From a virus: DNA of 53,136 nucleotides. Each line of letters opens with the position of its first letter. The first letter of the stretch is position 1. Below the pieces are notes generated by a model. It was not told the origin of the DNA and did not search any database. It was given only the letters and a program-made list of their open reading frames with translations. Positions 37,149 through 53,086 of the stretch are shown here, piece after piece. A program made the translations under genes and the position numbers. The stretch is taken from the IMG/VR virus record IMGVR_UViG_3300037585_000579, positions 1-53,136 of that record; one strand, given 5' to 3'.

Positions 37149-37155
37149 TCTAACT

Positions 37156-37177
37156 GGGAGGGGCTTCGGTCCCTCCC
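37156..37177 (+). terminator. UUCG hairpin
   Basis: A 9-bp stem (37156-37164 with 37169-37177, one G-U) has a TTCG loop, directly after the first early gene and before a small membrane-protein gene. No T tract follows, so attenuation or RNA protection is as likely as termination. Confidence 0.6.
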
Positions 37178-37196
37178 TAACCTTTAGGAGTTTAAC

Positions 37197-37382: not shown

Positions 37383-37410
37383 AGGAGGAGCTTCGGCTCT
37401 TCCTTTCTTT
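37383..37410 (+). terminator. UUCG hairpin terminator
   Basis: A 9-bp stem (37383-37391 with 37396-37404) with a TTCG loop and a TTTCTTT tail, just after the small membrane-protein gene. It has the form of an intrinsic terminator. Confidence 0.75.
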
Positions 37411-37765
37411 AAAGTTTGTATCCTAACCTATAAAAAAAATACATTTAATTGTATTTAACACTCAATTATATATCTTAACCGTTAAAAAAGACGCACTAAT
37501 CTGTGTAATTCGTCCCCTTTACGTGTGTGTTGCATAATAAACCACCACCGTAATAATCTAACCAATCTATAAAGACTAACAAATACAAGGGACTAATAGC
37601 TGTTGTATATATATCACACTATCAAACTGATTTATATATTCTCATCATCTATGTGTAGCCTGAAGAGTATCATGATGATAGCTTTGACGAACTCTCTCGC
37701 TTTTGAAACACCCACTTCGTTGAGGGCGTTTCATCCGCTTACTGTCTATCTATAGGAGATATAAT
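37411..37765 (+). other. AT-rich intergenic region without a supported gene
   Basis: About 355 bases hold no convincing gene. It contains an AAATACA/TGTATTT inverted repeat near 37438-37457, an AT-rich stretch, and a TGAAAC/GTTTCA hairpin with an inner CCC/GGG pair (37704-37733). A 34-codon ORF at 37651 lacks a ribosome site. AGGAGAT stands before the next gene. Confidence 0.5.
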
Positions 37766-38125
37766 ATGTCATTTGATTTAGTTGTTGCTGGCAGTAGAGA
37801 CTTTATGCATTATGCTTTGTTAGAGAAGACATTGGATAAACTGTTAGTGAACAGGGTTGATGAAGGTGTAAGAATAATAAGTGGAACAGCTAGAGGGGCT
37901 GATGAGTTAGGACAAATGTATGCAGATAATAAAGGCTATGATGTAATACTAAAGCCAGCTAAATGGAATCTGCATGGTAGGTCAGCAGGATATAAAAGAA
38001 ATGTAGAGATGGCAGACATAGCTGATGCTGTTATATGTTTCTGGGATGGTAGATCCAGAGGCACTAAGCATATGATAGATATTAGTGAGTCAAAGGATAT
38101 ACCATTACGTGTAATAAGATTTTAA
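37766..38125 (+). CDS. SLOG-family protein (DUF2493, YspA/cpYpsA-like)
   Basis: A 119-residue Rossmann-like protein with GSRDF (9-13), ISGTARGADELG (38-49), KWNLHGRSAGYKRNVEMADI (66-85) and FWDGRSRGTKHMI (92-104), the conserved motifs of the DUF2493/YspA branch of SLOG domains. SLOG proteins bind nucleotides or nucleotide-derived ligands and often act in stress or defence signalling. In a phage it may sense or consume a signal nucleotide; that is inferred. GGAGAT precedes the ATG. Confidence 0.8.
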   Translation: MSFDLVVAGSRDFMHYALLEKTLDKLLVNRVDEGVRIISGTARGADELGQMYADNKGYDVILKPAKWNLHGRSAGYKRNVEMADIADAVICFWDGRSRGTKHMIDISESKDIPLRVIRF

Positions 38126-38134
38126 TAATCGCTC

Positions 38135-38161
38135 CAACACCCCCCTCTTCGAGGGGCGTTG
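38135..38161 (+). terminator. GC-rich stem-loop of the early intergenic family
   Basis: CAAC/GTTG outer pairs enclose CCCCTC/GAGGGG with a TTC loop. It follows the SLOG gene and precedes the tRNA-like RNAs. It lacks a long T tract. Confidence 0.55.
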
Positions 38162-38216
38162 TCGCTTCTCATACTTACTTTATCTTAAGGTTCGTAGTCA
38201 AGACATGACCTCTTGT

Positions 38217-38384
38217 GGAGAGTCTGGTTGAGTTTATGTTGAAATTCCATGCACTGTTTCAACAGGGTAGTCTTAAAACAGATGAGTGCGAGACAGACAT
38301 CTGGCTGCATCTGGATCGTGGTCGTTCCAAGCTTTGCAGTATTAATCAACTACCTAACAGAGGGTTCAATTCCCTCTCTCTCCA
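38217..38384 (+). ncRNA. tRNA-like RNA element 1 (168 nt)
   Basis: GGAGAGT (38217-38223) pairs with TCTCTCC (38377-38383), a 7-bp acceptor-like stem with a U-U at the last pair. A perfect T-arm follows the tRNA rule: GAGGG, loop TTCAATT, CCCTC (38360-38376), with A as discriminator and no CCA. Between them are CTGGTTGAGT instead of a normal D-arm, an 8-bp helix TGTTGAAA/TTTCAACA (38237-38264) and a GGTAGT/ACTACC helix (38266-38271 with 38349-38354) holding a 77-base structured insert. No anticodon arm is recognised. An exact CTTACTTTATCTTA repeat stands before this and the next element. Confidence 0.75.
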
Positions 38385-38400
38385 TCTTACTTTATCTTAT

Positions 38401-38522
38401 GGAAAGTCTGGTTGAGTGAATGTTGTAAACCTATGAAGGCATGACTATCATGTTGGAGGTCTGTACAATGCAACAAGGTGAGTACAGTCACCTAACAGAG
38501 GGTTCGATTCCTTCTCTTTCCA
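38401..38522 (+). ncRNA. tRNA-like RNA element 2 (122 nt)
   Basis: It has the same plan as element 1. GGAAAGT (38401-38407) pairs with TCTTTCC (38515-38521) with the same U-U. The T-arm is GAGGG, TTCGATT, CCTTC (38498-38514), and CTGGTTGAGT is shared. Helix A TGTTGTA/TGCAACA (38421-38475) now holds the longer insert, and helix B AGGTGA/TCACCT (38476-38493) is a tight hairpin. TAACAGAGGGTTC before the T-loop is common to both. Changes in the acceptor, such as A for G with T for C opposite, keep pairing, which supports a selected RNA fold. Confidence 0.75.
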
Positions 38523-38545
38523 GCTTACTTATAAGGATATACAAG

Positions 38546-38746
38546 ATGAACAACTTTTATACTGGATACATGTCCGCTGATAAAGATCTCAGAGAAGCAA
38601 TTCAAAATAATCAAATAGGTTGGCTCAATAAAGCATTAAAAAGTTTCGATAACGATCCCCCAAATAGTTCTTTTCAGGAAGGATATAAACAACTACTCAT
38701 TGAAGAATTTAAAATGAAAGGATTAAAAGATGAGTTTAGATTATAG
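38546..38746 (+). CDS. Small early protein (66 residues)
   Basis: A 66-residue hydrophilic helical protein (MNNFYTGYMSADKDLREAIQ at the N-terminus). The ATG at 38546 has AAGGAT upstream. In-frame ATGs further upstream fall inside the tRNA-like RNA and are not credible. It overlaps the next gene. No family recognised. Confidence 0.55.
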   Translation: MNNFYTGYMSADKDLREAIQNNQIGWLNKALKSFDNDPPNSSFQEGYKQLLIEEFKMKGLKDEFRL

Positions 38747-39051: not shown

Positions 39052-39241
39052 CTATGCACAGAACGAAAAAGATTTTCAAGAGAGAGTATTTGATTATCTT
39101 GATGAACTAAGAGAGCTTGGAGTAACTAATATGTTTAGTGCTACTCCATATATTACTTCTGTTTTTAGTGTTGATAAATTTGAAGCAGGTAATCTTTTAG
39201 AAAATTGGATGAAGACATATCCAAGAAAGAGGAACCAATGA
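39044..39241 (+). CDS. Small early protein (65 residues)
   Basis: A 65-residue protein, acidic at the start (SDYAQNEKDFQERVFDYLDE), with a basic end (KTYPRKRNQ). The stop overlaps the hydrolase ATG. Its role is unknown; the coupling suggests joint expression with the hydrolase. Confidence 0.5.
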   Translation: MSDYAQNEKDFQERVFDYLDELRELGVTNMFSATPYITSVFSVDKFEAGNLLENWMKTYPRKRNQ

Positions 39242-39738
39242 AATGGGTAGTACTGCTGATAGTTGGTTTAGCTATAGCAGTTTATTTTAATCCTGTAAAA
39301 GCAAGCAAAGGATTAACAGATGAAGAGTATGAAGAAAGACGATGCTTAGTAGAAGCTATATACTTTGAAGCTAGATCAGAGTCAATACTAGCACAGCTTG
39401 CAATAGCTAATGTAATACTTGAACGAGTTAAGTTAGCAAACTTTCCCAACACAGTATGTAAAGTAGTAAAACAAGGACGGTATTATAAAGGCCATCCAAT
39501 ACGACATAAGTGTGCGTTCTCTTACTGGTGTGATGGTAAGTCAGAGAAAATGTACAACAATAAAGCTAAACAAAATGCTATAAAGGTAGCAGCTATGGCA
39601 GCCAGTGGTATTTTTGTAGATCAAACGCTTTATTCTACACACTATCATGCTACTTATGTTAATCCTTACTGGGCATCTAACGAAAGGTTTAAAATTGTTG
39701 CACAAATAGACTCACATATATTCTATATACAACATTGA
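39238..39738 (+). CDS. SleB-type cell-wall hydrolase with N-terminal signal or anchor
   Basis: A 166-residue protein starting with a hydrophobic segment (WVVLLIVGLAIAVYF, 3-17) that looks like a signal peptide or SAR anchor. It has the SleB/Hydrolase_2 core: LVEAIYFEARSES (37-49, putative catalytic Glu44), AIANVILERV (56-65), CAFSYWCDG (92-100) and the closing YHATYV and HIFYIQ. SleB enzymes are peptidoglycan lytic transglycosylases. AAAGAGG precedes the ATG. It is in the early module, away from the M15 lysin, so it may remodel the wall early or be a second export-dependent lysin. Confidence 0.8.
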   Translation: MKWVVLLIVGLAIAVYFNPVKASKGLTDEEYEERRCLVEAIYFEARSESILAQLAIANVILERVKLANFPNTVCKVVKQGRYYKGHPIRHKCAFSYWCDGKSEKMYNNKAKQNAIKVAAMAASGIFVDQTLYSTHYHATYVNPYWASNERFKIVAQIDSHIFYIQH

Positions 39739-44882: not shown

Positions 44883-45749
44883 ATGCCTAAAAAAAATATT
44901 AATAATCTAGTCAAAGATATCTATAGTCTTTTTGATGATGGTAGTTTAAATAAAAAACAACTTGAAGAACTACCAAAACATTTAAATAAATTTACTGAAG
45001 AAGTTTCTAGTCAGATTGCATTATCTCTTTGTGAAGATAGAAAAGATGATAATAAATTAAGATTGTCTGCTATAGGAAAACCTAATCGACAGCTATGGTA
45101 TAGGTCTAATCTAAAACAAAAAAGAAATCCTTTACCTCCTTCCACAAAAATTAAATTCTTATATGGTCATATCCTTGAAGAGCTTCTTCTTCTCCTTACC
45201 CGTGTTGCAGGTCATACTGTAAAAGAAACTCAAAAAGAATTAGATATACAAGGTATTAAAGGACATCAAGATGCTGTAATAGATGGTGTCTTAGTTGATT
45301 GTAAAAGTGCTTCAGGAAAAAGCTTTGAAAAGTTTAAACAAAACAAGCTTTATGAAGACGATCCCTTTGGATATATTTCTCAGATATCTGCATATGCTCA
45401 AGCAAATGAAGTAGATGAGGCTGCATTTCTTGCTATAGATAAATCAACTGGTGAAATATGTTTAACTCCAGTACATTCAATGGAAATGATTAATGCTACA
45501 GAACGTGTGCAATACCTTAAAAGAATGGTGTCAGCTAATAGTGTACCTGATCGGTGCTATTCTGATATACCTGATGGTAAGTCTGGCAACTATAAGCTTC
45601 CTATTGGTTGTATTTATTGTGACTATAAGCGAGAGTGCTGGTCAGATGCTAATGATGGTCAAGGACTTCGTGTGTTTAATTATGCACAAAATAAAAGATA
45701 TCTTACAAAAATAGGACGACAGCCAGAGGTTGAAGAGCTAACAGAATAA
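44883..45749 (+). CDS. PD-(D/E)XK exonuclease, Cas4/RecB-like
   Basis: A 288-residue protein with the nuclease motifs GHILEE (95-100), GHQDAVIDGVLVDCKSAS (127-144; Asp130, Asp139, Lys141) and QISAYAQ (167-173). Its C-terminal Cys residues 225, 243, 246 and 252 could hold an iron-sulfur cluster as in Cas4 and AddB. The usual N-terminal Cys before the RxxWY box is not there (PNRQLWYR). The ATG at 44883 has no clear ribosome site. A GTG at 44865 has a G-rich tract upstream and is the alternative. Likely role: DNA end processing or host-DNA degradation. Confidence 0.75.
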   Translation: MPKKNINNLVKDIYSLFDDGSLNKKQLEELPKHLNKFTEEVSSQIALSLCEDRKDDNKLRLSAIGKPNRQLWYRSNLKQKRNPLPPSTKIKFLYGHILEELLLLLTRVAGHTVKETQKELDIQGIKGHQDAVIDGVLVDCKSASGKSFEKFKQNKLYEDDPFGYISQISAYAQANEVDEAAFLAIDKSTGEICLTPVHSMEMINATERVQYLKRMVSANSVPDRCYSDIPDGKSGNYKLPIGCIYCDYKRECWSDANDGQGLRVFNYAQNKRYLTKIGRQPEVEELTE

Positions 45750-46468
45750 TGCATTGGACTTACAATAAAAAAGTAAAACCAAATCCTGATAAGTATTTTG
45801 GTTTTGTCTATAAGATTACTAATAAAAAAACAAAGCAAGCTTATATAGGATGTAAACAATACTTTGTAAAAAGAAATGGAAAGACTGTTGTTTCTAACTG
45901 GAAAGAATACATGGGGTCTTCTAAAGCTTTGCTTGAAGATATTAAAAAGATAGGAAAGAAAAATTTTACATTCGTATTAATAGATCAGTACGAAAATAAA
46001 AGAACAATGAAATACTATGAACTTCATTATCAAATTAAGCTTGGAGTTCTTATAAAAATACTTGACGGTACAGATAAATATGCCTACTATAATAATTATG
46101 TTGGAGGAAGGTTTACCCGACCAATTAAAGGAGCAGAAGAAATGGTAGAAATTGATAAAGAAAAACAACTTCTTACCAAGCAAGTTAATTCATTGAAAAG
46201 ACAGCTAAACCGTTATAAAAAAAGGATTGATATGTTGACTAAAGATTTAGAAAAAGTTAATGGAATTTCTGTTGATAAATCATGGAAAGTTGAAAAACAA
46301 AATGAAAATGTAATAGACTTTGAAGCTTACAGAAAAAAAGTAAATACAAGCAAAGAAGAATACAATGCACTAAATGAATTTATGATTGAGTGTGGTTATG
46401 ATCCTTATGATGTTGAAGATACAGCAAAGTTTTGGAATGATCTTGAAGAAGGTAGCGAATTTAGTTAG
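45749..46468 (+). CDS. GIY-YIG endonuclease-like protein
   Basis: A 239-residue protein with the GIY-YIG core: GFVYKITN (18-25), AYIGCKQYF (31-39), NWKEYMGSSKALLEDIKK (50-67) and a Glu-containing YYELHY (89-94). This is a phage-typical variant with FVY in place of GIY. A coiled coil (QLLTKQVNSLKRQLNRY, about 145-175) and an acidic tail follow. It may be a repair-type or homing nuclease. Start overlaps the upstream stop (TAATGC). Confidence 0.7.
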   Translation: MHWTYNKKVKPNPDKYFGFVYKITNKKTKQAYIGCKQYFVKRNGKTVVSNWKEYMGSSKALLEDIKKIGKKNFTFVLIDQYENKRTMKYYELHYQIKLGVLIKILDGTDKYAYYNNYVGGRFTRPIKGAEEMVEIDKEKQLLTKQVNSLKRQLNRYKKRIDMLTKDLEKVNGISVDKSWKVEKQNENVIDFEAYRKKVNTSKEEYNALNEFMIECGYDPYDVEDTAKFWNDLEEGSEFS

Positions 46469-53009: not shown

Positions 53010-53086
53010 GCACTTGTAGTTCAACTGGATAGAACAACAGACTTCTAATCTGTAGGTTGCAGGTTCGAGTCCTGCCAAGTGCGCCA
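53010..53086 (+). tRNA. tRNA-Arg (anticodon UCU)
   Basis: A canonical cloverleaf: acceptor GCACTTG/CAAGTGC, D-arm GTTC/GAAC, anticodon stem ACAGA/TCTGT with loop CTTCTAA (anticodon TCT), T-arm GCAGG TTCGAGT CCTGC, discriminator G and an encoded CCA. It reads AGA, a codon common in this AT-rich genome. It lies right after the RNR gene. Confidence 0.97.

Follow-up and report, generated by a model that had tools for sequence, protein, structure and literature searches.

The stretch of DNA analysed here – the window – is the whole of IMG/VR virus record IMGVR_UViG_3300037585_000579, 53,136 bases of a marine phage. Between a gene of the YspA/SLOG family (37766–38125, plus strand; Pfam PF10686, 7.9e-13) and a run of small genes, beyond which lies a cell-wall hydrolase gene (39205–39738; Pfam PF07486), stand two tandem tRNA-like RNA elements, both on the plus strand: element 1 at 38217–38384 (168 nt) and element 2 at 38401–38522 (122 nt). 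A first-pass annotation had proposed the pair and both were found where it placed them. It had also noted an exact 14-base repeat ahead of each element. The repeat, CTTACTTTATCTTA, is indeed exact (38174–38187 and 38386–38399, plus strand), and its second copy, between the elements, abuts element 2; the first, however, lies some 30 nt ahead of element 1. The same repeat stands immediately 5′ of the element in the related contig L002.

A tRNA-Arg at 53010, with CCA encoded, is the one RNA that ARAGORN, or Rfam at gathering scores, calls in the window. Neither ARAGORN, run for tRNA and tmRNA, nor Rfam at gathering called anything at 38217–38384 or 38401–38522 – in keeping with the earlier view that these are not ordinary tRNAs – and a permissive Rfam scan of the elements returned T-arm or sub-threshold matches only. 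A descriptor comprising a 6-bp acceptor, TGG just downstream, a 6-bp T-stem and a T-loop matched elements 1 and 2 alone in the window, and had no match in 60 dinucleotide shuffles. Megablast of window bases 1–25000 against isolated phages gave no match. Other features of the early region include UUCG-type hairpins between genes, partly terminator-like (37155–37180, 37383–37404, 37705–37740 and 38130–38160, of which 37383–37404 is a scan match), and a SegE-like GIY-YIG homing endonuclease gene (45749–46468; Pfam PF19835, 9.7e-25).

Anatomy of the two elements

Element 1 opens with the acceptor strand GGAGAG (38217–38222), which pairs with CTCTCC at 38378–38383 and leaves A38384 as the discriminator. 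There follow CTGGTTGAGT (38224–38233), near-invariant across 22 members and bearing a D-loop-like GG without a D-stem; helix A, formed by TGTTGAAA and TTTCAACA (38237–38264), taken from the MFE fold and covarying in the family; helix B, GGGTAG/CTACCT with an insert of about 79 nt (38265–38355), assigned from sequence and MFE fold; and the T-arm AGAGGG-TTCAATT-CCCTCT (38359–38377). A candidate kiss joins TGCACT (38250–38255) to AGTGCG (38285–38290) through five Watson-Crick pairs and one G.U, the strands here, as in L057, having been picked by eye. Element 1 matches the descriptor and scores 72.4 bits against covariance model R1.

Element 2 (85.9 bits against the same model) has homologues in L002, L067, L001 and L119–L128. 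Its acceptor strand GGAAAG (38401–38406) pairs with CTTTCC (38516–38521), the discriminator is A38522, and CTGGTTGAGT recurs, invariant, at 38408–38417. Helix A (TGTTG/CAACA, 38421–38475) contains the insert and, at 38461–38466, the strand CTGTAC (K1), which pairs with the loop GTACAG (K2, 38482–38487) of helix B, AGGTGA-GTACAG-TCACCT (38476–38493). The T-arm, AGAGGG-TTCGATT-CCTTCT, occupies 38497–38515. A protein reading of element 2 was considered and rejected: a small open reading frame runs through it (38441–38746) and has a relative in L067, but that relative sits away from the element, so element 2 is not conserved as protein.

Much of the first-pass description survives: the shared CTGGTTGAGT, the TGTTG..CAACA helix, the TAACAGAGGG that follows the GGT..ACC helix, and inserts at different sites (helix B in element 1, helix A in element 2). 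So too does the lack of an encoded CCA after the discriminator of either element, unlike the window's own tRNA-Arg. Two details required revision. The acceptor-like stem exists but is not of 7 bp, being a 6-bp acceptor combined with a 6-bp T-stem, with T7 unpaired and invariant; and the GGT..ACC helix, also real, is in fact of 6 bp with an A-U or G.U outer pair. The complementarity between the loops of helices B and A, absent from that account, is the central feature.

A family of kissing-hairpin RNAs

Pattern scans of viral contigs in IMG/VR gave 22 distinct member sequences, 91–179 nt in size, the shortest (91–94 nt) being those of L025, L070 and L078; sampling was by exact patterns, and more diverged members – the second copy beside L078, for example – were surely missed. 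Read 5′ to 3′, the common plan consists of a 6-bp acceptor, T7, TCTGGNNGAGTNNATG, helix A, helix B, AAC, a 6-bp T-stem and the acceptor 3′ strand. The segment after T7 reads CUGG NN GAGU NN A. Helix A has at least 5 bp, usually with a U-A outer pair followed by G-C; helix B has 6 bp, an outer A-U or G.U, and a 6-nt loop. The T-loop consensus is TTCRAYY, the position after the acceptor 3′ strand is usually A, and no CCA is encoded. Acceptor and T-stem total 12 bp as in tRNA (7+5), yet are split 6+6. Helices A and B occupy the places of the tRNA D- and anticodon-arms, and GG precedes helix A instead of lying in a D-loop.

The kiss is between the 6-nt loop of helix B (K2) and a complementary stretch (K1) inside the helix A loop. 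Instances are CUGUAC/GUACAG in element 2, CUAUAC/GUAUAG in L001, UGUGAG/CUCACA in L003, L025 and others, UGUGAC/GUCACA in L078 – where both kissing loops are of 6 nt – and CUAGAC/GUCUAG in L070. Around this core, inserts occur at three sites: in helix A (element 2, L003), in helix B (element 1, L057) and in the CUGG–GAGU segment (L001). A constant core with inserts at three places is at odds with an antisense or a coding function.

The structure was evaluated on an alignment of the 22 cores, inserts removed and cut by eye, in which standard pairs make up 98.7% of cells and both sides have changed in 24 of 29 pairs. The covariation score, 0.664, compares with 0.253 ± 0.016 in shuffles (0/500), and the signal collapses when partners are slid; the 16-member alignment of the first members gave the same outcome. 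Each of the five helices, the kiss among them, has several doubly changed pairs, including five of six in the acceptor and four of six in the T-stem, the latter being 100% paired over the 22 members. The positions of acceptor, T-stem and helix B were fixed by sequence (helix B with the exception of element 1 and L057). K1 was located by its complementarity, and its 100% pairing is therefore in part a consequence of how it was chosen; the existence of an exact kissing complement, for which the chance is about 0.7–3% per element, and its change in step are not. At least five different complementary 6-mers make up the kiss among members (CTGTAC, CTATAC, TGTGAG, TGTGAC and CTAGAC). Folded as single strands, the elements have moderately low energies (z from −1.8, in element 2, to −3.2, in element 1). 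The earlier expectation of compensated changes, with structure kept despite divergence, is thus borne out by homologues that covary as a family. That a tRNA top half and two adjacent hairpins joined by a 6-bp loop–loop kiss constitute a structural class is, we consider, very nearly certain. The conserved bases outside the helices – T7, CUGG, GAGU, AAC and the T-loop – agree with what is expected of a tRNA elbow.

Elements 1 and 2 are paralogous members of this family, and two copies per genome recur (the window, L078 and L119/L123/L125). The second copy in L078 (7309–7401, minus strand) is diverged: it has GGAAGA...TCTTCC and the T-arm GAGGGG-TTCGATT-CCCCTC, with CACTGGGCC in place of TCTGG..GAGT, and may mark another subfamily.

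Members fall into two phage lineages. The first comprises the window, L001/L005, L002, L004, L067 and L068, with the element at the same genomic place, together with a distant relative, L057; L119–L128 are contigs placed here by the lineage-1 sequence with which they were found. In this lineage the element holds a constant position between genes of one strand, in most relatives with the YspA/SLOG-family gene likewise upstream, and judged by the ribonucleotide reductase its nearest phages in culture are Roseobacter phages CRP-3 and CRP-212 (76% identity). The second lineage contains L003, L008, L009, L015, L020, L021, L025, L029, L030, L033, L040 and L042, as well as L070 and L078. Judged by the sequences of the DnaB helicase, UvsX and baseplate hub in the L030 record, it is a marine T4-like group; the L030 helicase is 71% identical to that of Methylophilales phage Melnitz and 65% to that of Pelagibacter phage HTVC008M. 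A terminator-like hairpin (GAGAGTGTC...GACACTCTC, then a T-run), with a conserved apical part of about 60 nt, lies 5′ of the element in L003, L008, L030, L070 and L078, and several lineage-2 elements have a T4-late-promoter-like TATAAATGCAATA on their 3′ side.

Comparison of window proteins with proteins near lineage-2 elements revealed no relative at E < 1e-5, and yet the RNA cores are closely alike across the lineages. Because the RNA is common to two lineages whose neighbouring proteins are dissimilar, it is the RNA itself that has been selected. Kissing-hairpin tRNA-like RNAs are a previously unclassified family common to unrelated phages. No convincing match to the element was found in CRP-3, CRP-212, HTVC008M or Melnitz; given that many related phages are without it, the element is not generally required. 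In GTDB, 84,980 bacterial and archaeal genomes were scanned with a pattern covering small to middle-size members, which returned only tRNAs or chance matches and no family member.

T4 species 1 RNA and other tRNA-like molecules

A known phage RNA has the same overall plan: species 1 RNA (RNA C) of T4, encoded by rnaC at 70908–71046 of T4. It is a discrete stable RNA on Northern blots (PMC9697503) and a late RNA of unknown function (PMC9697503, PMC3014915, PMC12685909). The statement in the first-pass annotation that no described phage element follows this plan must be qualified accordingly, although it holds in so far as the searched papers lack that description: a kissing tRNA-like fold for rnaC was not found in the literature searched, older subscription papers lying mostly outside it.

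Our T4-type set consists of rnaC and six homologues from other Straboviridae (n=7; cores cut by eye), the homologues being situated inside tRNA clusters. These RNAs combine an acceptor of 7 bp with a 5-bp T-stem and T-loop; the loop of their helix B, CGUCAA, is complementary to UUGACG, the loop of an upstream hairpin. In Yersinia phage fHe-Yen9-01 the kiss has changed in a compensated way, to UUGAUG/CAUCAA, and Watson-Crick pairs take the place of the acceptor's two central U.U mismatches; over the whole alignment 13 of 30 pairs are doubly changed (0/500 shuffles). The marine covariance model ranks rnaC top in the T4 genome at 29.5 bits, but this is only some 5 bits more than the best ordinary tRNA scores (24.7), and the model places an alternative 5′ border inside rnaC. 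A descriptor free of family sequence – a T-arm, a helix with a 6-nt loop, its upstream complement and a loose acceptor – was applied to both strands of 2.5 Mb, a target rich in the family by selection, and recovered the family, the T4-type RNAs and one unrelated chance match.

The likenesses comprise the acceptor and T-arm, kissing hairpins with complementary 6-nt loops, the want of an anticodon, UAAC just ahead of the T-stem or extending into it, and compensated changes in all helices including one in the kiss. Unlike the marine family, the T4 RNA has a 7-bp acceptor (with two central U.U in most) and a 5-bp T-stem, AGGA after the acceptor as against UCUGGNNGAGUNNA, and a basal helix A that is unsupported. 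On this basis we claim a shared architecture; common descent we put no higher than plausible. Two further T4 candidates were rejected: rnaD, which has no T-loop, as a relative, and an alternative acceptor, CGGAACG/CGTTTCG, which neither fHe-Yen9-01 nor Melville preserves. In Enterobacter phage SonariX the rnaC homologue (L088: 354–448, plus strand) was deposited as tRNA-Met.

With tRNA (RF00005; tRNA-Sec, RF01852) the marine elements share the 12-bp acceptor/T stack, the TTCRAYY loop, two more arms and a short spacer before the T-arm; they differ in the 6+6 split, the lack of a D-stem around GG and the lack of an encoded CCA. The loop in the anticodon place has 6 nt and is paired to helix A. 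No Rfam tRNA match reached gathering, the best being tRNA-Sec at 16.4 bits against a threshold of 47, and ARAGORN miscalls the L030 element as tRNA-His. Resemblance to tmRNA (RF00023, RF04321) lies in a tRNA-like domain without a D-stem but with CUGG, and in extra loop pairings. Identity with tmRNA was nevertheless rejected: the elements, at 91–179 nt, have no tag frame (in element 2 the frame from the conserved AUG ends after two codons, AUG UUG UAA) and no D-loop motif GGNUUCGAC, an ARAGORN tmRNA search of the window found none, and the Rfam tmRNA match, of the T-arm only, scores 11.4 bits against 47. Genuine tmRNAs of the permuted two-piece type are present in the L030 record (L095: 9647–10133, minus strand; tag ANDNANYGDYALAA) and in Melnitz (L101: 45984–46436, plus strand; tag ANDNYVPVDYALAA). 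The 3′ tRNA-like structures of plant RNA viruses (Tymovirus, RF00233) provide another instance of viral tRNA mimicry with long-range loop pairing; they, however, end RNA genomes, are aminoacylatable and carry a CCA end, whereas the phage elements are internal in a DNA record. The Tymovirus match (15.5 bits, E = 0.32) is at chance level.

Possible roles

That the elements yield a discrete stable RNA is probable. Host tRNA-processing enzymes would excise both RNAs from the early transcript, RNase P cutting the 5′ end and RNase Z or an exonuclease the 3′ end; the products would persist, resistant to nucleases, and could occupy in trans a protein that recognises the tRNA elbow and acceptor, candidates being RNase P, RNase Z, the CCA-adding enzyme, EF-Tu, SmpB or a tRNA-attacking defence nuclease. 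The pairing of the loop in the anticodon place excludes decoding; and with CCA not encoded, it would have to be added if the RNAs are to mature as tRNAs do. Recognition as a tRNA elbow is what the conserved unpaired bases and the T-arm suggest. We regard action as an elbow ligand or decoy in trans as a tentative proposal, at rather less than even chances, and processed, stable RNAs acting in trans on an elbow- or acceptor-binding protein as a reading that falls just short of them.

One alternative is that the fold acts in cis. It might recruit RNase P and RNase Z to cut the early polycistronic RNA, the excised RNA being only a by-product; the SLOG transcript upstream would be separated from the small genes downstream, and their stability set. 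The tRNA top half is a classical RNase P substrate, and the setting is suggestive: a constant place between same-strand genes in lineage 1, and a position between terminator-like hairpin and T4-late-like promoter motif in lineage 2. But cutting needs the acceptor and T-arm alone, which leaves unexplained the kissing hairpins, the conservation of CTGG..GAGT and AAC, and the recurrence of two copies per genome. That recurrence, the constant core with its wandering inserts, and the tRNA-gene neighbours – a tRNA-Tyr gene adjoins the element in L126, and the T4 types lie among tRNA genes – favour a trans-acting RNA over a cis signal, which we consider rather unlikely. Decayed or intron-bearing tRNA genes without function would account for the tRNA-like ends and for the tRNA-His miscall; pervasive compensatory change contradicts such decay, as do acceptor and T-stems fully paired in 22/22, a conserved non-helical core and presence in unrelated phages, and we give this explanation almost no credence.

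Two further alternatives were weighed. The elements could be sacrificial or blocking tRNA mimics, substrates or antagonists of host defences that cleave tRNA (anticodon nucleases, retron effectors). Phage tRNAs do counter such defences, as T5 tRNA-Tyr does retron-Eco7 (PMC11555353), and a mimic with no free anticodon would presumably be an uncleavable competitor; the known cases, however, are true tRNAs with the cleaved anticodon, and the window offers no link between the element and a defence system; we consider this account unlikely. Less probable still, the elements could titrate trans-translation as SmpB ligands, being the tRNA-like domain of tmRNA in reduced form. An acceptor/T domain that lacks a D-stem and carries CUGG is reminiscent of that domain, sub-threshold Rfam tmRNA matches exist, and marine T4-like relatives – Melnitz and the L030 record – carry tmRNA genes (PMC9004378). 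Those matches, though, are mostly to the T-arm and far under the gathering score, the D-loop motif and tag frame are wanting, and the L030 record has a full tmRNA besides its element.

More broadly, the marine RNAs and T4 species 1 RNA may belong to one widespread class, kissing-loop tRNA-like RNAs, acting in trans on the host tRNA machinery or on defences that attack tRNA – a possibility we hold open at somewhat below evens. If correct, a T4 RNA known for decades and never explained gains both a class and a testable function; Rfam 15 has no structural family for it or for the marine elements. The marine family supplies many diverged examples, some of only 91 nt, whose shared core shows which bases matter, together with a defined architecture that includes a loop–loop kiss, and it makes the role of RNA C directly testable in T4 and E. 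coli. For annotators there is a warning: kissing-loop elements are overlooked, or miscalled as tRNA-His or tRNA-Met.

Some matches from the searches proved to be something else. Those in Hafnia phage SarahDanielle, phi92 and Klebsiella phage KP13-26 (L112: 359–439; L114: 501–587; L115: 501–591; all plus strand) were rejected as members on account of an anticodon loop CTCCAAA, G73 and an encoded CCA, and L092 and L093, matched by a gapped pattern, are ordinary tRNA clusters. The former three are unusual tRNA-Trp genes with a very short D-loop, unannotated or overlooked by annotators.
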